This document shows, piece by piece, positions 5,548 to 48,845 of a stretch of DNA of 55,683 bases. This DNA comes from a virus, in the IMG/VR virus record IMGVR_UViG_3300023174_000203, positions 1 through 55,683 of that record. One strand, given 5' to 3'. A model generated the notes under the pieces. It had not been told where the DNA came from and did no database searches. It worked only from the letters and a program-made list of their open reading frames with translations. Both the position numbers and the translations under genes were made by a program. Position 1 is the stretch's first letter; the number at the start of each line of letters is the position of its first letter.

Positions 5548-8394
5548 TTATTTATTAGACTTTTTTTTATCCTCTATTTCTTTTTCTTTTTTCTCGCGCT
5601 CTAGGCGTTCTTTCTTAGCGGCGTTACCCATTCTTTTCATGAAGGATGGTTTATTATAGTAGGGAGTTGCTTCGTCAATCTGCTCTTCTTCTTTTACAGG
5701 CTTCATTTTTTCGTTTTCTGGCTCTTCTTTATACTTCTTAGTATAGACAGTACCAGTTGAAATTTTCTTCTTATCAAATTTGCTCTTTAGAGCGTCTTTC
5801 ATTCTTTTCTTAGCATCATCCACTGTTGGAAATGCTTCGTTAACCTGAGTTTCTTCTTTTGCTAGACGGTCTGCAGCCTTTTCAATACCAGCCATTCTGT
5901 TCTTTAGCTTTACTTTTACTTCTGGTCTAGCATCTTTAACCATTCCTGAAGGTGACTCGCGTCCTACTAATTGCTTATCACGACCATATTCTTTAGATGC
6001 TTTCTTAACATAAGAACCTAATGTAGATTTCTTTAGTTCGTCAATCTGCTCTTCTTCTTCTTCTTTTACAGGCTTCATTTTTGTTTTTGCTGTATGAACA
6101 TTTGTAAGAGGATTCTTTTGGCGCTTACTTGCAGCAATAAAGTTCTTATTGTTCTTTTCAATCTTTCTTCGATAATCGTTCTTATCTTCATTAACTTCAC
6201 TTTGCATATAGTCAGCAACAGTACTAATATAATCAGCAGCCAGAGTAATCTTGCTCTGTACCCATTCAGCCATATTGGTATCATCTTTTAGCATATCATG
6301 TGCCTGCTTAGCGTTAGCCATAATACTACGCAGCTGACTCTTTGCCATGTCGCCTTCATAATCGTATTCTCTAGGATCCTTGGCTTCATTTGCTTTAGCA
6401 ATACCCTTCTCACGCTTCTTAATAAAGTTCTTAGCGATATCTCTGTACTCTTCACCCTTTTTAGTATAAGGTATAGATTGCTTTATTTGATCTTTAGCCT
6501 TAGCAACATATGATGCTTTAGTTGCAGGTGATAGTTCATCTAACTGTTCAATCTCTTCTTTCATTCTTACATCAGCACGCATAGATCCAGCTGTGCGTTT
6601 AGCTAATTTTTTTTGTACAGAAGGAGGATTATTTGAGTATTTGTATTTCTTAATATACTCACTAGCTTTTGCTTTATAATCGCTTACAGTCTTTTGTGAC
6701 ACTTCATCGATCTGAACATCTTCTGATGTAGGTTTTTTATTCATCAAACGTACTGTTGCGTTTGCCATACCTGATACGTCTTTCTGTGAAGGAACACCCG
6801 GCTTATTTGTCTTCTTTTGAAGATAAGATTTAAGTGTAGTCTTTTTCAATTCATAAATTTGATTGATCTCTTCTTTAACTGCAGCATTTTTAAATTTATT
6901 CCAATCTGATTTATCAGTGCTAACAACCTTATGAAGTGGTACTACGTGCTTTGATGCTGTATGAACTTTAGTTCCTGCACTACCGCCAGTTTTATGAGAT
7001 ACTTTGCTTATATGGTGTTTACCTTCGTGCTTATAGATAACCGTGCCGCCGTTAGCGATATCATCTTCGCTATAACCTTCTTTAAGTCCCTTTGCAGCAG
7101 TCTTATCAGTTTTAATGTTTCTAATAACTGCAGTATAATCAGTAGCAAGCTTTTTAGTTGGATTTTTATTCTGTGTCTGACCTTTAACCATATTATAATC
7201 AGTAGTTACAGATTCATTTTTAGACATCTTAGCCATCTTATTCTTGAGCATATTCATCTTTGACTGATGCACTTTAACTGCCATATCATCACCAGATTTA
7301 TTAGCAGCAATTGCTTTTTCGGAATGACGATCTAATGCAGCTTTTAGATTTGCAGCTTTATCTTTACCAAATGCAGCTTCATTCTTCATACTTAGACTAC
7401 GTAGAAAACCATCTTCTTTTGGGATTGGATTTTCTTTTTTACGTCGTTGTGTTTCGTAATCTGTAGTTTTATCTTGTGCTTTTAAAAGTTCCAAATATTT
7501 TTTTTGTCTTTGAACCGCATTTTGTGCATTGGCAACTGCTTGATCCGATGACATTGACGGTAAATTGGGTTGAGGACGATTTACAGATTCGTCTAGTTCA
7601 ACTTCTTCTTTAATTCCTGCGTGCTCAGAGCCATGAACTTTATAGCCCCTCTTCTTATAAAACTTTTCACCAAGTTTTTGAGCAGATTCTTTATTTGGTC
7701 CATGATTAACTATAACATGCTTTAAAGTCTGTTCTTTACGCTTAGTTACCATAGGATGATCTGGCTCAGAAACGGTAACAGCAATACGATGCTTAACTGG
7801 TGCTGGAGCAACAGGAGCTTGTTCTAGTTGAAGATCTTCTTTCATTCCTTTTTTAAAACCTTTGAAGTTCTTACGAGGATTAGTCATGTCCTTCTCATCA
7901 GCTTCTTCTTCTTCTTTCTCTGCCTTCTTAGATTCTTTCTCGTCTTCGTTTTCTTCTTCATCATCTTCTTCGTCTTTTTTAGACTTCTTAGCTTCAATCA
8001 TCTGTTCAGCTTTTTCTTCTTCTTCTTTCTTCATACGAAGTTTCTTGAAGTCTTCAGCATCAAGCTTGCCATTCTTATTAACGTCGATCTTTTTCTGGCC
8101 ACCAACAAGTTTCTCTTCAATCTCTTCGACTTCTTCTTTACGAAGAGCTGTCTTAGTCTTCGACATCATTGATTGATCATTAACAACCACATCTAGAAGA
8201 TCTTGCATAACCTTAAGAAGCATCTCACGCTTAGCTGGATTCTTCATCGATGCTTCTGGATTTTCTAAAGCCTTCATAACAGCCGATGCATTCTTATCAT
8301 GGCCTAGACCTGAACGTACTAGATCTTGTTTTGCTCTAACTGATGCAGGAGTTGCCTCTGCAAGAATCTTTCTGATTTCTTTTTCGACTGACAT
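5548..8394 (-). CDS. giant repetitive internal-head/prohead-core-type polyprotein
   Basis: 948 residues, extremely Lys/Glu-rich with few hydrophobic segments. The N-terminus ends in ILAE followed by ATP, like the T4 capsid-targeting leader FIAE followed by A. An EF-hand-type loop lies at 104-115. A module 'acidic run - QIDEL - KKSTLGSYVKKA' recurs in degenerate form at least five times. The same module occurs in the protein at 48036-48845, which occupies the gp68 prohead-core position. Repeated (I/L)xE tripeptides match the T4 gp21 protease rule, so processing into peptides during head maturation is inferred. The Pfam family is unknown to me. The start is the ATG 9 bases after the upstream stop. 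Confidence 0.8.
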   Translation of the reverse strand: MSVEKEIRKILAEATPASVRAKQDLVRSGLGHDKNASAVMKALENPEASMKNPAKREMLLKVMQDLLDVVVNDQSMMSKTKTALRKEEVEEIEEKLVGGQKKIDVNKNGKLDAEDFKKLRMKKEEEEKAEQMIEAKKSKKDEEDDEEENEDEKESKKAEKEEEEADEKDMTNPRKNFKGFKKGMKEDLQLEQAPVAPAPVKHRIAVTVSEPDHPMVTKRKEQTLKHVIVNHGPNKESAQKLGEKFYKKRGYKVHGSEHAGIKEEVELDESVNRPQPNLPSMSSDQAVANAQNAVQRQKKYLELLKAQDKTTDYETQRRKKENPIPKEDGFLRSLSMKNEAAFGKDKAANLKAALDRHSEKAIAANKSGDDMAVKVHQSKMNMLKNKMAKMSKNESVTTDYNMVKGQTQNKNPTKKLATDYTAVIRNIKTDKTAAKGLKEGYSEDDIANGGTVIYKHEGKHHISKVSHKTGGSAGTKVHTASKHVVPLHKVVSTDKSDWNKFKNAAVKEEINQIYELKKTTLKSYLQKKTNKPGVPSQKDVSGMANATVRLMNKKPTSEDVQIDEVSQKTVSDYKAKASEYIKKYKYSNNPPSVQKKLAKRTAGSMRADVRMKEEIEQLDELSPATKASYVAKAKDQIKQSIPYTKKGEEYRDIAKNFIKKREKGIAKANEAKDPREYDYEGDMAKSQLRSIMANAKQAHDMLKDDTNMAEWVQSKITLAADYISTVADYMQSEVNEDKNDYRRKIEKNNKNFIAASKRQKNPLTNVHTAKTKMKPVKEEEEEQIDELKKSTLGSYVKKASKEYGRDKQLVGRESPSGMVKDARPEVKVKLKNRMAGIEKAADRLAKEETQVNEAFPTVDDAKKRMKDALKSKFDKKKISTGTVYTKKYKEEPENEKMKPVKEEEQIDEATPYYNKPSFMKRMGNAAKKERLEREKKEKEIEDKKKSNK
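5549..5557 (-). promoter_or_regulatory. possible late promoter (TAATAAATA variant)
   Basis: TAATAAATA on the minus strand, one base from the TATAAATA late box, 33 bases before a structural gene start. The identical nonamer recurs at 8784-8792 before another gene of the same block. Weaker than the exact matches elsewhere. Confidence 0.45.
6001..6060 (-). repeat. IDEL-KKSTLGSYVKKA module copy 1
   Basis: Encodes EEEEQIDELKKSTLGSYVKK in the first polyprotein. It is close at DNA and protein level to the copies at 6811-6878, 48237-48300 and 48591-48650. Confidence 0.75.
6811..6878 (-). repeat. IDEL-KKSTLGSYVKKA module copy 2
   Basis: Encodes EEINQIYELKKTTLKSYLQK, a diverged copy of the module at 6001-6060. 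Confidence 0.7.
8050..8085 (-). other. EF-hand-like calcium-binding loop inside polyprotein
   Basis: Encodes DVNKNGKLDAED (residues 104-115). It has acidic or Asn side chains at loop positions 1, 3, 5, 9 and 12 and Gly at 6, the canonical 12-residue EF-hand pattern. Only one loop is visible. Confidence 0.6.
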
Positions 8395-8793: not shown

Positions 8794-11640
8794 TTAGTCA
8801 TTATCAATAATCTTCAATTTTCGCTGTGCTTTAATATTACGCGAGATCAAATAATTAGATAGGTTATCAACATCCTTATCATTACCTGGACCTGGTTCTT
8901 GATTCAGGTTTTTAGGTAATGTTTGGAAACGTGGGTCATCAGCAAGATGCGCTGATGGTGGACGTTCAGTATTTCCACTTTGAGCATCTACGATCTTTCT
9001 GTATATATCAACAACATAACCATGCTCTGAATTGAGGTTCATATCACCAGCAAACTTCATTACTTTCATTGCTGCTAGTTTTGCTGCTGCAACATCTTCT
9101 GGAGTTGCAAACTTAGATACTTGAACTTTCTTCCAGATTCCAAATAGGTTATCTTGTTCTTGTGCAGCCATCGATGCCATGTTTGGATCAGTTCCTTTTG
9201 GAAGATTCATGTAAAGCTTTTGTGCTTCAGGACTTGTTTCAAAATGCTTTGAACGATATGAACCAACAAAGATCTGATCTTCAGGATCATTCTCCATTTG
9301 CTTACTCGAGCGAACTGTAGTGCTTGTCATTTTAGGTGCAGCTTTCATCTCTTTAAATGACATAATCTTTCTAACTTCAGGATGATGTTCAAATCCACCT
9401 AAACTCTCATTTGTTGTTTTTGCTCTAGCGTTTTGAAGCTGTCTTTTAAACCCTTGTGCTGTAGTACTGTCACCACGCTGAAGAGCACCTGCTATCTTTT
9501 TATGTATCGCAGCAGCAACGTGTTTACCCGCTTTAGCCATGGCTGCAGCAGCTCTTAGATGTGAAGCTGCATCTTCATTGATCTCTACTTCTTCTTTTCT
9601 AAGTGCATCGATCTCTTTCTGCTTTTGAGCAATTCTCTTCTTATACTCTTCAGGATCAGGTAGACCAGATTTCTTACGAAGTTCTTGATGACGACGATAC
9701 GCTTTTTCTGCAGCAGTTTCTTTAGGCATCTTAAAAGCTTCTTGAGCGCTCTTTAATGCATCTTTAGTTGGTGCACCTTTTGAACCTGGCTTACGCATAC
9801 GCTCACCTGAACCATTCTTAATACGTTCACGCTTGGCATGAATATTGGCCCAAAGACCAGCTTCATTAAGACCTTCTTTTTTCACCTTTGCCCATAGATC
9901 TGCATCAGCAGTTGTTCTTGTCTTACCACCAGATAAGAATGAATTTACTCGTGCAAATGCCCATTGTTGTGGTGTTGTTCCAGGACGGTGACTCGATTTA
10001 TATGCACCCATTCCACGCTTAAATACTTGCTTTAGAATACCAAGAGACACACCTGATTTTTCTGCTTTTTTCTTTAGACCATCAACAGCTTCTTCACTGA
10101 TCTCGGTCATCTCGATACGATCCATTACATTTTCAATGATCGTCAATAACTCATCGGTGTCATCTTTCTCTTCACCGATCATCTTCTTGAAGTTAGTATA
10201 GTTAGCACTTGCATTTTTAATGAATGCTAGTTTATCAGCGGGCTTCTTAAGCCCGAAATAATGATCGAGCGCTTTACGAGCTTGATCTGGTTTAATCATT
10301 ACTGCAGGACCTTGATCAAACGTAACATCCTTTTTACCATGCATTGAGATGGATTTTTGAAGTTGAATAATCAGATTCTGATCTGCTTCACGACCATTAT
10401 CTGGACCGTAATCCTCTTCACCATCTTCTTTAGCTTTTACTTTTGCTGCAGCTGCACGTTTAGCAAGCGTCTCAGGTTTAGCTGGACGACCGCGGCGTTT
10501 TACTTGCTGTGACATCTCTTTAAATGAAACCATTTCCATAATATCGTTTTCCTCTTTCACAGGCTTAATAGGTTGTGCTTTCATAGCTTGACCTAAATTA
10601 AATGATCTCAGTCTTTGAACTTCTTTCTTACGAACAGTAGGTAATAAACGTGATGCGATTCGCTTAATCAATGCTCCCTTTTTATCAATAGTCCTATCAA
10701 CTGCAATTTTATCTGATGGCGATAACTCATGATACTTAACACCTCTTTGACCTGCAAATCTCTTACGAGCAACATCTCTTGCCATTCTTTGCGCTCTAGC
10801 TTTTAACTTAGGAGTACCTGCTAATCTACGTTGTGCAAGTTGTTTGGCACGTAAAATCTTTGTCTTATACTTGCGCATAAGGATCTTACGCTTAATTCTT
10901 TGCTGAAGATTTAATACTGCTTCATTCAACAGACCTTCAGCTTCTAATTCGTTTTCCATCTCTTCACGAATATGCATCTCAACTTTTAATACGTTGAATA
11001 TCTCTGTAGCTACTGATTTAAGCTTAGATGGAAGACCTGACTTAAATGCCTTAATATCGTTCTCTCGTACTGCTTGTCTCATCTTAGACGCTGACATACC
11101 TGCTACTCCTTCTGCATCGGGATCACGCTCACCAGCGGATTCAACAACGATGCTATCAAAATTATATTCTTTTCCGTTATACTTGTTTAATAGTGAACTA
11201 AATTCATTCACACGATCTGAACCTACTACAACTGTAATATTTTTATATGTGTTCTCTAATTCTTTTAATACCTCAATAATAGTCTTTGCCTTTGAAACAT
11301 GCATAAGATCGCCAAATGCTTCGCGAGCATATTTCATCTTGTCTTTGTATGACAATGGATTCTTTTTACTATCTTGGGAGTGTGAGAGATATACTAGTGG
11401 TTTTGCTCTTTTACTTGCTGCAATCTTTTTGACTGCTTCCACTAGCTTTTGATGTCCTACAGTAGGAGGATTAAACCTACCGAAAGTTAGCACCACGGCG
11501 TTACCTGCTTGTTCGGCCACCTCGGATGGCACCTTTGGGTTTATTTCTATCTTATCAAGTTGCTTCTTACTAGTCGAAAAACCAGCTGAGGAGGCTTTTG
11601 GGGGAGTCTTTGACTTGTTTATTTCAATCTTCTTTTCCAT
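8794..11640 (-). CDS. nucleotidyltransferase-internal-head-type fusion polyprotein
   Basis: 948 residues. Residues about 48-215 form a HIGH-superfamily nucleotidyltransferase: LTFGRFNPPTVGH at 51-63 is motif I, SDRV near 141 is consistent with the family, and SASKMR at 183-188 is the C-terminal (S/T)xxxR-type motif. Such enzymes attach NMP groups to small molecules such as NMN or phospho-sugars. The substrate here is unknown. The remaining about 700 residues are basic and repetitive, with LNEA (twice), INED and ISEE sites and two internal MVSFKEM/MSFKEM starts. A late promoter at 11700-11707 drives it, so it is probably a virion component. AAGG lies before the ATG. Confidence 0.82.
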   Translation of the reverse strand: MEKKIEINKSKTPPKASSAGFSTSKKQLDKIEINPKVPSEVAEQAGNAVVLTFGRFNPPTVGHQKLVEAVKKIAASKRAKPLVYLSHSQDSKKNPLSYKDKMKYAREAFGDLMHVSKAKTIIEVLKELENTYKNITVVVGSDRVNEFSSLLNKYNGKEYNFDSIVVESAGERDPDAEGVAGMSASKMRQAVRENDIKAFKSGLPSKLKSVATEIFNVLKVEMHIREEMENELEAEGLLNEAVLNLQQRIKRKILMRKYKTKILRAKQLAQRRLAGTPKLKARAQRMARDVARKRFAGQRGVKYHELSPSDKIAVDRTIDKKGALIKRIASRLLPTVRKKEVQRLRSFNLGQAMKAQPIKPVKEENDIMEMVSFKEMSQQVKRRGRPAKPETLAKRAAAAKVKAKEDGEEDYGPDNGREADQNLIIQLQKSISMHGKKDVTFDQGPAVMIKPDQARKALDHYFGLKKPADKLAFIKNASANYTNFKKMIGEEKDDTDELLTIIENVMDRIEMTEISEEAVDGLKKKAEKSGVSLGILKQVFKRGMGAYKSSHRPGTTPQQWAFARVNSFLSGGKTRTTADADLWAKVKKEGLNEAGLWANIHAKRERIKNGSGERMRKPGSKGAPTKDALKSAQEAFKMPKETAAEKAYRRHQELRKKSGLPDPEEYKKRIAQKQKEIDALRKEEVEINEDAASHLRAAAAMAKAGKHVAAAIHKKIAGALQRGDSTTAQGFKRQLQNARAKTTNESLGGFEHHPEVRKIMSFKEMKAAPKMTSTTVRSSKQMENDPEDQIFVGSYRSKHFETSPEAQKLYMNLPKGTDPNMASMAAQEQDNLFGIWKKVQVSKFATPEDVAAAKLAAMKVMKFAGDMNLNSEHGYVVDIYRKIVDAQSGNTERPPSAHLADDPRFQTLPKNLNQEPGPGNDKDVDNLSNYLISRNIKAQRKLKIIDND

Positions 11641-11699: not shown

Positions 11700-11707
11700 T
11701 ATTTATA
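11700..11707 (-). promoter_or_regulatory. late promoter (TATAAATA)
   Basis: Exact T4 late-promoter box on the minus strand in the 73-base gap before the nucleotidyltransferase-polyprotein gene. gp55, the sigma factor for such boxes, is encoded at 41223-41789. Confidence 0.8.
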
Positions 11708-11713
11708 ATATTT

Positions 11714-12948
11714 CTATCTCTGCCAACCTTTAATTATATCAGGTGAAAAGTTGGCACGACTGAATTCTAAACGATCTACGATCTTAACTGCACCACCTGT
11801 TAGATGATCAATAGCAACAAAACCTTCGACTCCAGTAGTCTTGAATCCTGATGCAGTTTTTAAGAACGTCTTAATATGTCCTGCTGAGTTCATCTTATTG
11901 ATAATCATATTTTTTGCATCGATGATCAGATTTGCTAGATCGAATATTTGAGCAATGTCGGTCTTATCATGGTCAATAAAGAACTTTAATACTTTCTTTC
12001 TAGCTGCTTCTTGTGTTGCTTTTCCAGCCTCTGTCTTCTTCTTATCCATCTCTTTTTGATAGCGATCATGGATAAAATTATAGAGATCATTTACATGCTT
12101 ATTTGTGTTAGTGATCTTCTCTGAATTCCTGATCTTAGAGTTATTAAACATCTTTACCATGTTTAACAGATCGTTATCCTGATGGATTGCGTTAATTGTA
12201 CCTGATGTAGTTGCATTAAACAACTTACCGATCTTTGATAAGATTGCAGTTAATTCGGCAGTCTCTGTTGCAGTAAATGTTGCAGTGCCAGAATAATCTT
12301 TATAGTTAGCATCATCCATCCATACAGACTTCACATGCTTTAAGTTTGCAATAATACTTTTACCAAATGATGCTTTCATTGTCTCGAGAGTATCACCTTC
12401 ATACGTAGTATGCCATACGACACCCACATTTGCAGCATTAATCATTTTAGCAAGTGCACTATTAGCTGGAACGGCATAGACGATCGTATTAGGATGAAAA
12501 GTAATATAGTCTTCTTCACCTATAGTAGCAGTCTTAACATCACCTTTAGTGAACATCATATCGCCTTGATATACTCCGCTCTTGATTCCAAGTTTAGAGA
12601 ATTCTTTTAACGCGACTTTAAACTTTGTATTCAGATCTCCACTTAGATTGGCATCGATGTCTTTATCGGTCTTATAGACTTCAGGATTCTTATTGAAGAT
12701 TCCTTTTTTTGCAACGAAGAACTTACCATCTGCAGGATCGACACCAGCAAATATAGCAGGAGCACCATCCCATTTTACAGTAGCAGCAACTTTAGTCTTT
12801 GTTTGACCAGCAAGCATGTCACGAAGATCACGTAGGAAGTTAATCGCTTTACGAGTTCCATCAACACCCTCATTGAAGATGAGATCTTCTAAAGATGCTC
12901 CATATGAACGTTCTTTTGTTCAACAATATGATCTTTAAACTTTAGCAT
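11714..12948 (-). pseudogene. ligase-fold (KxDG nucleotidyltransferase-like) protein with out-of-frame start
   Basis: The long frame (ATG at 12815-12817, 367 codons) carries covalent nucleotidyltransferase-like motifs: KWDG at residues 15-18 (motif I), YQGDMMF near 83-89 (like motif III), EGFVAID near 330 (motif IV) and a K-x3-R pair just after (motif V). The natural beginning is probably further upstream. A strong AGGAGGG ribosome site precedes ATG 12946-12948, which encodes MLKFKDHIVEQKNVHMEHL and then meets TAG (12889-12891). The other frame continues with EDLIFNEGVDGTR and leads into the main frame. It may be a real frameshift, a sequencing error in the CTTTAG run, or recoding. The N-terminus resembles a capsid-targeting leader (IVE followed by Q). 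Confidence 0.7.
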
Positions 12949-13589
12949 ACAGAGCCCTCCTTTCTTTCTTTTCTAGGTTTCATTTTCCCGCGTCCTTTTA
13001 CATATCCTTCTGGTTGAGTTCCTTCAGTAACATATATTGAAGTTTCACCATTATTATACCACTTTAGATTCTTTTCCTTAACTGCGCTTCTTCCATACAT
13101 TGGGTTATTATTTCCAGACACATCATGACCATGCATGTTTTTTACTCTATCTCTTCTTTGTTCTTCTGTTAAACTGTCCCAATGTTTCTTAACTTGTTTA
13201 GAAGTTGACTTCCCATACATTGGATTATTTTTTCCAGTCTTATCTACAGTTTTCATATATGAATTTCTAGATTTTCTTTCGTCCTCAGTTAAAAATGACC
13301 AATACTTTTTAACAGTTTCCGGGTTGCCTCCATAACCGCCTTCAGACAAATTATAAAATTCTTCTGAATTTACTGCATCATATAATTCTATCCATTTTCT
13401 TTCGGCTCTAGATACTTCTTCTATACTTAAACATTCTTCTAAAATAATCTTTTCAAAATTTTGTTTTCCATATTTTTTAATTGCTGCTAGTATTAATGGT
13501 CCTGATCCAAGATAAGAATCATCATTTCGTGTTGAATACCCAATATACTTTTTACCGTTTATTTTATTTGTCGTCAAATATACATGCAT
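12942..13589 (-). CDS. GIY-YIG homing endonuclease with NUMOD3 repeats
   Basis: 215 residues. The GIY-YIG domain is at the N-terminus (VYLTTNKINGKKYIG, residues 3-17; conserved Glu near 88-92). It is followed by two NUMOD3-type DNA-binding repeats with the core NNPMYG (about 118 and 158) and a basic end. Such free-standing genes copy themselves into cognate sites by double-strand-break repair. It ends inside the ribosome site and first codons of the ligase-fold gene, which is the gene with the broken frame. AGGAGG precedes its ATG and a late promoter lies at 13608-13615. Confidence 0.9.
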   Translation of the reverse strand: MHVYLTTNKINGKKYIGYSTRNDDSYLGSGPLILAAIKKYGKQNFEKIILEECLSIEEVSRAERKWIELYDAVNSEEFYNLSEGGYGGNPETVKKYWSFLTEDERKSRNSYMKTVDKTGKNNPMYGKSTSKQVKKHWDSLTEEQRRDRVKNMHGHDVSGNNNPMYGRSAVKEKNLKWYNNGETSIYVTEGTQPEGYVKGRGKMKPRKERKEGSVC

Positions 13590-13634: not shown

Positions 13635-14240
13635 TTATTTTATTGTCTTTATACTTCCATCAGGTTTTGCAAAGTAAGCTTCAAACTTAATCTTTGGGAA
13701 TGAATTCTTTAACTTTAAGAACTCTTTTAGATTACTCATCGCATCATCGAACAATCTTACTTTACTAAATTGACCTGTACTTAAATAATTATGAATGATG
13801 ATAGCTTTTTTGTGTGCAGGCATCATATCACCACTAATATTACCTGCACGTTCTACTCGAACTTTACCGATATCAAATTTGTGTTTACTAAATGTTTCTA
13901 AGAATCGATCTTTGTTATCGAAGTTTGCTCGTGCAGTAACTATCACTACACGACTCTTTGCATTTCTTGTTGATCGATCTAAGATGATCTTTGCTTTAGT
14001 CAACATCCTATTAATTGGCTCAGATTCTTTGTAGAACTTTTCTGCATCTCTAAATTCTGAGAAGTCGAATGACTCTCCATTTTCAAGTTTATATACATTG
14101 AACTCATTGTTCGTTAAACTCTTGATCTTCTTACCATCTTTAACAACTGCGATCTTTGCAGTCGTGTGGAACAACGTATCATCAATATCGAATATTGATA
14201 ATGTACCTAATTTACTGTTGTATTCTTTGAAACTTAACAT
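13635..14240 (-). CDS. HAD-superfamily phosphatase
   Basis: 201 residues. FDIDDT at 17-22 is the HAD nucleophile motif DxDxT. VTAR near 100 is motif II, a Lys in the PAHKKAI segment can serve as motif III, and LFDDAMSN near 165 is the acidic motif IV. The lineage resembles polynucleotide kinase 3'-phosphatases and other phage HAD enzymes. The start MLSFKEY resembles the leaders of neighbouring late proteins, but no (I/L)xE site follows. It is transcribed from its own GTGTAC/TATAAT promoter, so expression is early or middle. AAAAGGAAAT precedes the ATG. Confidence 0.85.
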   Translation of the reverse strand: MLSFKEYNSKLGTLSIFDIDDTLFHTTAKIAVVKDGKKIKSLTNNEFNVYKLENGESFDFSEFRDAEKFYKESEPINRMLTKAKIILDRSTRNAKSRVVIVTARANFDNKDRFLETFSKHKFDIGKVRVERAGNISGDMMPAHKKAIIIHNYLSTGQFSKVRLFDDAMSNLKEFLKLKNSFPKIKFEAYFAKPDGSIKTIK

Positions 14241-14351: not shown

Positions 14352-15074
14352 TCATTTAAGAAATGGATTCTTTTTAGTAGTTCCAGGCTTAACAGAATAA
14401 TCGCTCTTTGGCATATCCATAATTTTAATCTCAGCTTGTACTTCATAGAACTCTGAACGAGTAGAAATACGAACCTTAAAGTCTCCAGTACCTTTTAATA
14501 AAGGAATAGTTACACCCAATTTAAATGGATCAACATTTGAGATTCTATAGAAGTCATCTCCTGCCTGCATATAATATGCAGGTTGTGCTTTACCTTTAAT
14601 ATAATGATCTGTTACCACTTTACCTAGATCCATCTTTTCTTTATTAGCAATGTAGCGATTAATGCCAGGCTGATCAAAATACTTCTTCATTACCATAAGT
14701 GGTACAGCTCCTGGTTCTTTTAACCCGCTTTTAGTTGTTGGAATCTTTAAGCTCTTAAAAGGAATTCCTGAATACTTCGCAATAGCTTTTAGGAATGCTT
14801 CAGTCTGTGTAGAACTATTAAGAATATCGACTGCCGCTTTTGCAGATGGAGTTTTATATGTAGTTTGCCATTTGCCATTTTCATAAAATACACGAGGATT
14901 AGATAGATTGTCAGTATGGTTCATCTTGACTTCCATCCAGTGTTCAAGTTTCTTATATTTAATCAATACGTCTGCGTATGCAGTATCTCCTGGAGGACGT
15001 GTAGCTTTCACTCCTGGGATTTTATTGACATTATCTGCTACATCTTTTTCATATTTGTCTGATGCTGCACTCAT
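14352..15074 (-). CDS. PD-(D/E)XK nuclease-like protein
   Basis: 240 residues. The segment DTAYADVLIKYKKLEHWMEV followed by K (residues about 30-50) places D35, E48 and K50 in the D-x(n)-E-x-K arrangement of PD-(D/E)XK endonucleases. An upstream Glu (about 9) could complete the site. The C-terminal half is beta-rich with no recognised motif. It is a putative DNA or RNA nuclease whose target is unknown. A late promoter and GGAG sit directly upstream, which is unusual for a metabolic nuclease and suggests action in maturation or packaging inside the virion. Confidence 0.65.
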   Translation of the reverse strand: MSAASDKYEKDVADNVNKIPGVKATRPPGDTAYADVLIKYKKLEHWMEVKMNHTDNLSNPRVFYENGKWQTTYKTPSAKAAVDILNSSTQTEAFLKAIAKYSGIPFKSLKIPTTKSGLKEPGAVPLMVMKKYFDQPGINRYIANKEKMDLGKVVTDHYIKGKAQPAYYMQAGDDFYRISNVDPFKLGVTIPLLKGTGDFKVRISTRSEFYEVQAEIKIMDMPKSDYSVKPGTTKKNPFLK

Positions 15075-47059: not shown

Positions 47060-47725
47060 TTACGATTTTGATAATTTCTTCAGGAACGTCTCGAATATCT
47101 GCATCTTTTTGTCTAGATTCAATGTTCTAGATCTTACAGCAGTATCTACATCTTCTTTGACGCCTTCTAAATGTTTTTGCACTAACATGCCGTTATTCCA
47201 AATCCATTCAACTCCTTCCATGACGCCTTGAACAAATGCATCAGGTGCAGAAGGATCTGCAACGATATCAGCAGCAGTGGCTAATGTAAAGTCTTTTTGA
47301 ACTTCCATTACACCATCTTTGCGTTTCACCATTGAACCTAGTCCACGAGTAGAAACTCCAAACTTTGCTCCAGCATTAATCAAGTTTTTTGCAATATTGC
47401 CGTATGGTGTATCAACTAATTTGGCGCGACCAATAAAGTTATCACCATCTTGTTTTAATTCGGTAATAAGATGTGATACACGCTCTAAATTAATAGAAGG
47501 ACCAGATGGATGACCTAATTCGCCGAATGCACGATTTGTTTCAATCTTTTCTTTTACGTAACGAGCAGCTTCTCTTGCAAGAACATCTGTAGAATAAAAA
47601 CGATTATTTTGGTTTTGTTTATTACCTTGCATAAAGATGCCTTCAATGTACATGTCTTTTCCGCCATTTTCTTTGGCTTCAGTGACATATTTAACATCTT
47701 CGATGACTTCGCATATAAGTTTCAT
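47060..47725 (-). CDS. 21: prohead maturation protease gp21
   Basis: Serine protease that cleaves head proteins after (I/L)xE. 221 residues: GELGHP (His72) and FGVSTRG (Ser125) form the catalytic motifs. The length is like T4 gp21 (212). Its likely substrates in this window are gp22, gp23, the gp67-like protein and the repeat polyproteins. Confidence 0.95.
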   Translation of the reverse strand: MKLICEVIEDVKYVTEAKENGGKDMYIEGIFMQGNKQNQNNRFYSTDVLAREAARYVKEKIETNRAFGELGHPSGPSINLERVSHLITELKQDGDNFIGRAKLVDTPYGNIAKNLINAGAKFGVSTRGLGSMVKRKDGVMEVQKDFTLATAADIVADPSAPDAFVQGVMEGVEWIWNNGMLVQKHLEGVKEDVDTAVRSRTLNLDKKMQIFETFLKKLSKS

Positions 47726-48035: not shown

Positions 48036-48845
48036 TTATTCCTTACCAGCTCGTTTAGCTGAATAGTATGCTGCGAGAGCTTGTTGCTTACGCTGTTCTT
48101 TTGATTTACCAGCAAATTTAGGATTCTTTGAAGATTCAAAATCTTTAATCCATTCTCCAGCTCCACTAGAAACTTTTAGAACTTCATTCATTTCAACTTC
48201 TTCTTTTTGAGTTGCTTGTTCAGCATCTTGTGCTGCTTTCTTAACATAAGAACCCAATGTAGACTTTTTAAGTTCATCCATCTGTTCAATATCTTCTTTT
48301 AAATGTCCTGCTTTTTTAGCAGCATTTAAAACATCAGTACGATCTCTGTATGAACCATTAAATACATCAGACGTCAAATGTGGTTTATATTTGTTATGGT
48401 GTTCTGGTTTAATATGCTTTAGTAAAGCAGCACCTGCTGGATGCAGAGTGTCGTTGAATACTGCTTCTTTTTGAGTTGCTTTAACACCACTCATACGCAA
48501 ACCAGCATTTCTTATACCTTTTGCATCTTTTTTGGCATATCCATATTGATTTTTTGAAACAGGCTCATCACTCATCTTTCCAAATTTCTTTTGAATATAA
48601 GAAGCTACTGTAGACTTTTTCAATTCATCCAACTGTTCTTCTTCATATACTGCTTCTGAATCTGGAGTACTATAACCCTTACGTGTTGCTTTACGATCGA
48701 TTGTTTTAACTTTTGCACCAGAATAAACATCATCACCGTTACCTGCTACATCAGCAGTCTTAACAGTAATATGCTTCTTAACGAAGCGCTTCTCATCAGC
48801 CGACTTTGGAGAATATACTTCTAAAATTTGTTTTAAGGTTTTCAT
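48036..48845 (-). CDS. prohead-core/internal-head protein with IDEL-type repeats (gp68 position)
   Basis: 269 residues, Lys/Glu-rich. The start MKTLKQILE followed by V resembles the T4 capsid-targeting leader MKTYQEFIAE followed by A. Two copies of the E-Q-(L/M)-D-E-L-KKST module (about 71 and 190) match those of the 948-residue polyprotein, and MNEVLKVSSG is another potential gp21 site. Location between gp67-like and gp21 equals gene 68 in T4, which is the best evidence that the repeat family is head-internal. Confidence 0.75.
   Translation of the reverse strand: MKTLKQILEVYSPKSADEKRFVKKHITVKTADVAGNGDDVYSGAKVKTIDRKATRKGYSTPDSEAVYEEEQLDELKKSTVASYIQKKFGKMSDEPVSKNQYGYAKKDAKGIRNAGLRMSGVKATQKEAVFNDTLHPAGAALLKHIKPEHHNKYKPHLTSDVFNGSYRDRTDVLNAAKKAGHLKEDIEQMDELKKSTLGSYVKKAAQDAEQATQKEEVEMNEVLKVSSGAGEWIKDFESSKNPKFAGKSKEQRKQQALAAYYSAKRAGKE
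48237..48300 (-). repeat. IDEL-KKSTLGSYVKKA module copy 3
   Basis: Encodes IEQMDELKKSTLGSYVKKA in the gp68-position protein. It is nearly identical in the last 14 residues to 6001-6060. Confidence 0.75.
48591..48650 (-). repeat. IDEL-KKSTLGSYVKKA module copy 4
   Basis: Encodes EEEQLDELKKSTVASYIQKK in the same protein. Confidence 0.72.

Follow-up and report, generated by a model that had tools for sequence, protein, structure and literature searches.

A HIGH-superfamily nucleotidyltransferase fused to a basic modular tail in a marine T4-like virus: a candidate head-packaged enzyme with a predicted prohead-protease site at the junction

Phage T4 provides two precedents for proteins that travel in the phage head. 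Its internal proteins IPI-IPIII are small non-enzymes that are made late, targeted to the head by an N-terminal leader, the capsid-targeting sequence (CTS; MKTYQEFIAE↓A, the arrow here and below marking the cut), and processed by the protease gp21, while the ADP-ribosyltransferase Alt is carried in the head. In cyanophages, T4-GC190, a putative cytidylyltransferase, is a core gene and its product was seen by mass spectrometry in S-SM1 virions (PMC3037559). The T4-GC190 forms that we read are mostly about 290-390 amino acids (aa) long and have an N-terminal leader. Here we describe a relative encoded in a stretch of 55,683 nucleotides (positions 1 to 55,683 of IMG/VR virus record IMGVR_UViG_3300023174_000203; hereafter the window), a metagenomic fragment of a marine T4-like virus that was never isolated. 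Its open reading frame (ORF) of 948 codons encodes an N-terminal nucleotidyltransferase of the HIGH superfamily joined to a long basic tail (Table 1). The protein resembles the cyanophage proteins in its domain, in its family, in its place between gp41 and gp61 and in the DUF6267 gene that is adjacent in most of them. In contrast to them, it lacks a leader, and its modular tail of 700 aa opens with a basic domain behind the sequence LLNE↓A. An initial annotation, made from the sequence alone, had proposed that gp21 releases the enzyme inside the head and that the phage injects it with its DNA, analogous to Alt. We consider packaging of this protein in the head and its release by gp21 to be probable, at roughly 0.6.

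The ORF opens with an ATG and its product starts with MEKKIEINKSK. Pfam family PF01467 (CTP_transf_like) covers aa 51-152 (E=1.4e-7; 32.2 bits against a cut-off of 21), and PHROG 3041 is matched over aa 19-371 with E=1.5e-79, which places the protein in this family; PHROG 395 is matched as well (E=8.4e-50). Both PHROGs are named 'cytidyltransferase', which is a mere annotation label for the family. Identity to the listed best members of the PHROG 3041/T4-GC190 family is 40-52%. In an alignment of 66 diverse virus sequences, nearly all 44-59% identical to the window enzyme, the G, R, N, first P, T, G and H of GRFNPPTVGH are invariant. The same holds for the first S of SASKMR, of which the A, second S, K and R are at least 90% conserved, and for a SAGxRDPD loop that is specific to this enzyme family. 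An AlphaFold model of aa 30-250, based on the same alignment, has a mean predicted local distance difference test score (pLDDT) of 91.6. Sequence searches of the PDB with the whole protein or with a family profile gave no significant match, and structure comparison was therefore needed. With Foldseek, the best matches of the model were the NadD, PPAT and NMNAT adenylyltransferases (E about 2e-6), and the VIA structure comparison gave Z scores of 14.5 to PPAT and 13.5 to an archaeal NMNAT. The fold matches listed are adenylyltransferases and include no cytidylyltransferases, although the domain could still be a glycerol-3-phosphate cytidylyltransferase, as annotated. By its predicted fold, the domain is thus an adenylyltransferase-type member of the HIGH superfamily of nucleotidyltransferases. 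It looks catalytically competent, because the fold matches and the motifs (GRxNP.T.GH, S.SK.R and SAGxRDPD) are kept. The complete HIGH nucleotidyltransferase that had been read from the two motifs at the N-terminus is therefore borne out by Pfam, PHROG and fold, and its active site, far from being catalytically impossible, is intact, with its motifs kept in the 66 relatives.

Scans of the 948-aa protein against Pfam, NCBIfam and PHROG revealed one catalytic domain only. The protein is in this respect different from the polyvalent proteins (Iyer et al. 2017, PMC5512222), which are also large multidomain proteins of virion type with predicted injection but have several catalytic domains; the window protein has one, in a T4-type context of protease sites and leaders. 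Phages often re-use enzyme folds as structural elements, and the tail resembles core proteins; the fused domain could in principle be an inactive remnant with a purely structural role in the prohead core. We regard this as very improbable, as the TxGH motif, S.SK.R and the set of basic and acidic active-site residues are kept across the 66 sequences.

Cyanophage authors call the enzyme NMNAT-like, and cyanophage papers suggest that a virion-carried adenylyltransferase for nicotinamide or nicotinate mononucleotide (NMN/NaMN) restores or raises nicotinamide adenine dinucleotide (NAD+) on entry. The predicted fold, nearest to PPAT, NadD and NMNAT (VIA Z 13-14.5), is in line with this idea, as are the NMNAT-like TxGH and SxSxxR motifs and weak matches to TIGR00482. 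However, the score for TIGR00482, the NMNAT equivalog, is far under its cut-off (18.4 against 112.45 bits), as is that for the nadR model (13.1 against 341 bits). PPAT is matched equally well as NMNAT, and identities to the phage NMNAT, NadD and NadM enzymes and PPAT are 10-19% in the alignments listed. Moreover, the SAGxRDPD loop is the family's own, only 2 of the 12 records contain a nicotinamide phosphoribosyltransferase (NadV-like, PF04095), and the constant partner of the enzyme is a protein with a predicted ligase fold (see below). An NMNAT role is thus possible, but clearly a minority choice among the readings of function.

The enzyme family is present in 598 phage records and in at least 596 IMG/VR loci. 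The full-length protein retrieved one relative from IMG/VR, whereas a narrower alignment retrieved 80 loci. A cellular origin was rejected: 84,980 genomes gave 35 matches (L101-L135) on contigs filed as bacterial or archaeal, which are probably phage contigs binned with their hosts, since nearly all have titles that name metagenome bins. Members of the family have been detected in virions. Besides T4-GC190 in S-SM1, these are S-CREM2 ORF154 with three peptides (PMC10665884), S-SZBM1_140 with two peptides (PMC9146016) and S-SCSM1 ORF91 (PMC9602691). The copy of P-SSM4, which we retrieved as a family match, carries the annotation T4-GC 190. Absence from virions therefore does not hold for the relatives. 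Authors of the cyanophage virion studies (PMC9602691 among them) already proposed that virions bring the enzyme into the host. For the family, the idea of packaging and injection is thus not new, because relatives are known from virions and host entry was suggested in print. The virion-associated 'cytidyltransferase' is a cyanophage core gene that is abundant in marine virus sequence. A further observation concerns S-CREM2 ORF156 (L014:16013-16726), which lies two genes after the cytidylyltransferase and was found in virions as well. Its PF01909 match (E 3e-4) marks it as a nucleotidyltransferase of the pol-beta type, and the S-CREM2 virion may therefore carry two kinds of nucleotidyltransferase.

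Many relatives of the enzyme begin with a T4-type leader that abuts the catalytic domain, such as MKTFGKFLTEA-KDKGVVFTFGRFNPPT (L082) and MKTYQRFMTERKG (L063). The S-SSM4 enzyme starts with MKKFSDFLTEA, followed by a longer spacer, and a further form is MKTYQRFMTE↓R. These leaders parallel the N-termini of T4 IPII and IPIII (MKTYQEFIAEA), and their pentapeptide FLTEA is identical to aa 62-66 of T4 gp23, the known gp23 cleavage site. Leaders were found on 25 of 66 nucleotidyltransferase ORFs and on 21 of 54 DUF6267 ORFs, compared to 36 of 454 other flanking ORFs (Fisher 1.5e-9 and 1.1e-8, respectively) and 0.6% of shuffled N-termini; other leader-tagged genes include HAD phosphatases of the same stretch. 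Both virion-detected enzymes that we read (n=2) are leader-tagged (S-CREM2, MKNFSSFLTEA; S-SZBM1, MRFRQFIIEA). The DUF6267 proteins of these two phages have no leader and were undetected in virions, which agrees with a role of the leader in these two cases only. Among 29 papers matched to capsid targeting, cyanophages and related terms, the top 12, judged by title and abstract, do not describe such leaders, and literature searches on cytidyltransferase, DUF6267 and DUF5824 gave no result. Judged from the papers found, both the leaders and the ligase-fold partner are undescribed.

The window protein lacks such a leader but contains the sequence LNEA twice, at aa 238-241 and at aa 591-594. The first site, LLNE240↓A, fits the prohead-protease pattern [LIV]xE↓A, resembles LLGE58↓A in gp23 of the same phage and lies where the enzyme meets the basic domain. 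We compared this junction across loci. Among 50 unique instances of the basic domain, 20 are genes of their own, 25 are fused, either directly downstream of the enzyme or within a different long protein, and five form a C-terminal end. Stand-alone copies are often led directly by a leader, as in MMSFSQFLIE-TP-LTSTQRMQR (L079) and MLSFVEWEELDEV-LTAQQR (L094). A gp21-like site is found at the N-terminal boundary of the domain in 34 of the 50 instances, compared to 7.8% at random places in the same proteins. This boundary test replaced the raw count of gp21-like sites as evidence. Furthermore, enzymes with a close fusion are seldom leader-tagged (2 of 15, versus 30 of 57 for the others; p=0.008). 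DLP6, also of the fused class, has the junction LTE↓ALNAQQR. Judged from these sequences, the leader appears to have been replaced in the window clade by a fusion of enzyme and basic protein with a protease site at the junction, an architecture that seems not to have been described before. The simplest reading is that the fusion kept the protease site, and that one cut would still give a free enzyme and a free basic protein. The second LNEA site directly precedes the GLWANIHAKR module, which is itself leader-tagged once in our set (MLTFKKYLEEGER-GLWDNIHAKR; L055). The 35-residue stretch GLWANIHAKR...RKPGSKGAPT also occurs as a 58-aa gene in the cyanopodovirus P-SCSP1q (L012:2971-3147), between the major capsid and tail tubular genes. 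What was known here is the virion enzyme family and the T4 targeting logic; the fusion architecture and, according to the papers found, the leaders and the ligase-fold partner are new.

The genes of the window run in the order gp17, gp18, gp19, gp20, core region, gp21, gp22, gp23, uvsW, gp47, gp46, gp45, gp44, gp43, uvsX and gp41, followed by a phosphoesterase, a HAD protein, a GIY-YIG gene, DUF6267, the fusion gene, a repeat protein and gp61. The fusion gene thus lies among replication genes (uvsX-gp41 ... gp61) and outside the head cluster, and cyanophage relatives of the enzyme occupy the same gp41-gp61 stretch. Upstream of its start codon we found TATAAATA, a T4-type late promoter motif. 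The window harbours 10 such sites, all on the coding (minus) strand, and eight of them are located just 5′ of a gene start (8 of 59 starts, compared to 0.83 expected in shuffles). Among the genes preceded by the motif are gp18, gp22, gp23, the fusion gene and a 240-aa gene at 14352-15074. In 12 of 67 environmental relatives, a site of this type precedes the nucleotidyltransferase gene, with 1.2 expected. These sites likely map late promoters in the window. Late expression of the fusion gene, as the initial annotation had it, is therefore supported despite the non-head location, because the motif is enriched at gene starts and precedes the genes of relatives.

The location among replication genes could also suggest that the enzyme acts in the producing cell, in ordinary cytoplasmic metabolism, for instance by supplying NAD or cofactors while replication is under way. 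Its tail would then be a scaffold or serve oligomerisation, and the virion detections would be carry-over. Several stand-alone family members without a leader are consistent with this, as is the low coverage of the published detections together with their purification caveat. On the other hand, a late promoter motif would make the enzyme late for a metabolic aid. T4-type targeting leaders occur in the family, at least four independent proteomes of virions include a member, and the tail is modular with protease-type sites at module boundaries. We thus consider action in the producing cell unlikely.

In the packaging route that we favour, the fusion protein would be made late as a precursor. Its tail, a series of basic and small modules resembling those of T4-type internal head proteins, would draw this precursor into the prohead core; in the relatives, the leader rather than the tail would bring the enzyme into the prohead. 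The gp21-type protease would cut at LLNE240↓A during head maturation, and probably also at E593↓A. The first cut would free the intact enzyme (the first 240 residues) within the DNA-filled head, where it would be trapped with the DNA and then injected with the genome into the next host. Most relatives would reach the same end with a leader-tagged enzyme (e.g. MKTFGKFLTE↓A) and a neighbouring separate gene for the basic domain, which is often leader-tagged as well. T4 internal proteins follow the same logic, but the window clade would carry an enzyme as cargo and have the tag replaced by the fusion. The analogy to Alt that had been drawn holds for the proposed route (late, head-carried and injected) but not for the enzyme, as fold and chemistry are unrelated: the window enzyme has a HIGH adenylyltransferase fold and is not an ADP-ribosyltransferase with an R-S-E active site.

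Several points weigh against this route. The window protein itself starts without a leader, and our search found no virion proteome for the window virus or its near clade. The virion detections of the relatives rest on few peptides, and their authors caution that proteins may carry over through CsCl purification. Family members in CBB, Callisto, Cr30 and S-RSM4 are stand-alone and without a leader. The bare number of gp21-like sites in the window protein is at chance (4, versus 4.5 in shuffled sequences), and the E-A/V-L pattern that precedes the basic domain may belong to the first helix of that domain. In addition, the leader pattern was set partly after viewing these sequences, and the Fisher tests on leaders ignore shared descent. 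Of the earlier claims, that of LNEA sites near residue 240 thus stands for the position at a module boundary and not for the overall number of sites. Head packaging gains from the virion-found relatives, the enriched leaders, the boundary site and the late motif, and lacks a leader on the window protein.

The gene that most constantly accompanies the enzyme encodes a DUF6267 protein. In 47 of 62 loci, no more than 1.5 kb separates it from the enzyme gene. It is present in 12 of 12 T4-like relatives tested, whereas it is absent from T4, Cr30, CBB and Callisto. PHROG 455 covers both the enzyme and the DUF6267 families. In the window, the DUF6267 frame is broken at about 12889-12891, some 20 codons past its original ATG at about 12948, and because of this break the N-terminal part is missing from the listed ORF. 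A GIY-YIG homing-type gene (12942-13589, minus strand) lies directly before it; in the related locus L005, the insert is absent and the frame is unbroken. A group I intron at this gene was considered and rejected, as no Rfam match was obtained in the window; we read it as a free-standing homing gene. A predicted model of the intact L005 DUF6267 protein reached a pLDDT of 91.8. In a second-look comparison of this model, only RNA/DNA ligases were among the best 50 rows, with Z scores of 8.9 to Naegleria Rnl5, 8.0 to REL1 and 7.6 to both T4 Rnl2 and Rnl1. The KxDG, EGxV and following K..R motifs are invariant. KxDG, EGxV and K motifs are typical of covalent ligase-type nucleotidyltransferases. 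Foldseek alone was weak (E=0.06), and a profile search in the PDB gave chance matches only. Compared to the ATP-dependent RNA ligases, the DUF6267 protein shares the predicted fold and these motifs, but it has no significant sequence match and a large helical insert. We predict that it has an RNA/DNA-ligase-like fold.

With such a partner, the nucleotidyltransferase, DUF6267 and the HAD phosphatase, sometimes joined by a P-loop kinase, could form an RNA/DNA end-repair kit that is delivered with the genome and immediately repairs tRNA or DNA ends cleaved by the host. The ligase rows with their invariant motifs and the close and constant presence of DUF6267 argue for this. Moreover, both the DUF6267 and HAD genes bear leaders, and the HAD and kinase neighbours match PHROG polynucleotide-kinase families. 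The set also recalls the known make-up of phage RNA repair, an RNA ligase with phosphatase, kinase and nucleotidyltransferase (PMC7824862). However, the known RNA-repair nucleotidyltransferases are of the pol-beta or Thg1 type and not HIGH (PMC7824862), for which reason we keep end repair as a rival. The weak Foldseek result argues against it too, as does the absence of DUF6267 from the virion proteins of S-CREM2 and S-SZBM1, although it is leaderless there. We regard end repair as a possibility that is more doubtful than not. Both this function and the NAD-type one are compatible with the packaging route and do not exclude it, and our confidences therefore need not sum to one.

The probably packaged adenylyltransferase may be part of a virion-borne set for nucleic-acid repair or counter-defence. 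In its broadest form, this would mean that marine T4-like phages carry a capsid-delivered set of a DUF6267 ligase-fold enzyme, a HIGH adenylyltransferase, a HAD phosphatase and sometimes a kinase. These would bear T4-type leaders or be joined to head proteins of the leader type; the prohead protease would free them, and they would be injected with the genome, for end repair or counter-defence before phage gene expression. We put this forward tentatively and think it rather unlikely as a whole. If true and widespread, marine T4-like phages would deliver a set of nucleotide-transfer enzymes at time zero. With the leaders, the predicted protease site at the fusion and a ligase-fold partner that is constantly present, the questions of packaging and function become directly testable.

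Table 1. Features of the fusion gene, its predicted protease and its neighbours in the window.
Feature	Position	Strand	Basis
948-aa fusion protein: N-terminal HIGH-superfamily nucleotidyltransferase and long basic modular tail	8794..11640	-	ORF, families
HIGH nucleotidyltransferase domain, about aa 51-215	10996..11490	-	PF01467, PHROG 3041, AlphaFold model, fold matches
GRFNPPTVGH, aa 54-63, TxGH form of the HIGH motif	11452..11481	-	conservation in 66 sequences
SASKMR, aa 183-188, second active-site motif (SxSxxR/K)	11077..11094	-	conservation in 66 sequences
LLNE240↓A, predicted gp21-type prohead-protease site at the enzyme/basic-domain junction	10918..10932	-	boundary test
Basic domain, aa 243-344, with a net charge of about +28; encoded on its own by a small gene in many relatives	10609..10914	-	cross-locus comparison
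DUF5824 module, aa 523-581	9898..10074	-	PF19141 E=1.6e-12
LNE593↓A, second site, immediately N-terminal to the GLWANIHAKR module	9859..9870	-	motif position
GLWANIHAKR module, phrog_16028, aa 594-634; stand-alone elsewhere	9739..9861	-	PHROG match
TATAAATA, T4-type late promoter motif, 67 nucleotides 5′ of the fusion-gene ATG	11700..11707	-	motif search; identical spacing in L005
gp21-type head maturation protease, predicted cutter	47060..47725	-	phrog_207 E=1.8e-75
DUF6267 partner gene, KWDG motif	11714..12817	-	PF19782 E=5.6e-92
HAD phosphatase-like neighbour, degenerate leader MLSFKEYNSK	13635..14240	-	sequence comparison
Repeat-rich 948-aa protein, leader-like MSVEKEIRKILAE↓A	5548..8394	-	repeats, similarity to the gene between gp20 and gp21
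269-aa gene in prohead-core position, flanked by the portal (gp20) and protease (gp21) genes; product begins with MKTLKQILE	48036..48845	-	shared repeats with 5548-8394

The initial annotation had also called the fusion protein repeat-rich, which was not confirmed: its tail contains one weak 28-nucleotide repeat pair, and the repeats lie instead in the neighbouring repeat protein and in the gene between gp20 and gp21. These two products are alike over a long stretch (blastp E 6e-15, composition correction off) and have the repeat unit EEQ(I/L)DELKKST(L/V)xSY(V/I)xKK in common. This similarity suggests two proteins of prohead-core type, one of them encoded far from the head cluster.

The HAD neighbour has a degenerate leader in the window, and its relatives carry full ones (MLGFKEYIAE and MKSFKQYLQE). 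In pelagiphage HTVC008M, gp129 (L002:11291-11953) lies between DUF6267 and the cytidyltransferase; it is a P-loop kinase that resembles zeta toxin and PSTK and is assigned to a PHROG polynucleotide kinase. The 240-aa gene at 14352-15074 (minus strand) and a gene at L023:1526-2326 had no Pfam or NCBIfam match. Both contain D...ExK-like stretches, judged by eye, and are candidate PD-(D/E)XK nucleases; the L023 gene product starts with a full leader, MTVRFKSFITES.

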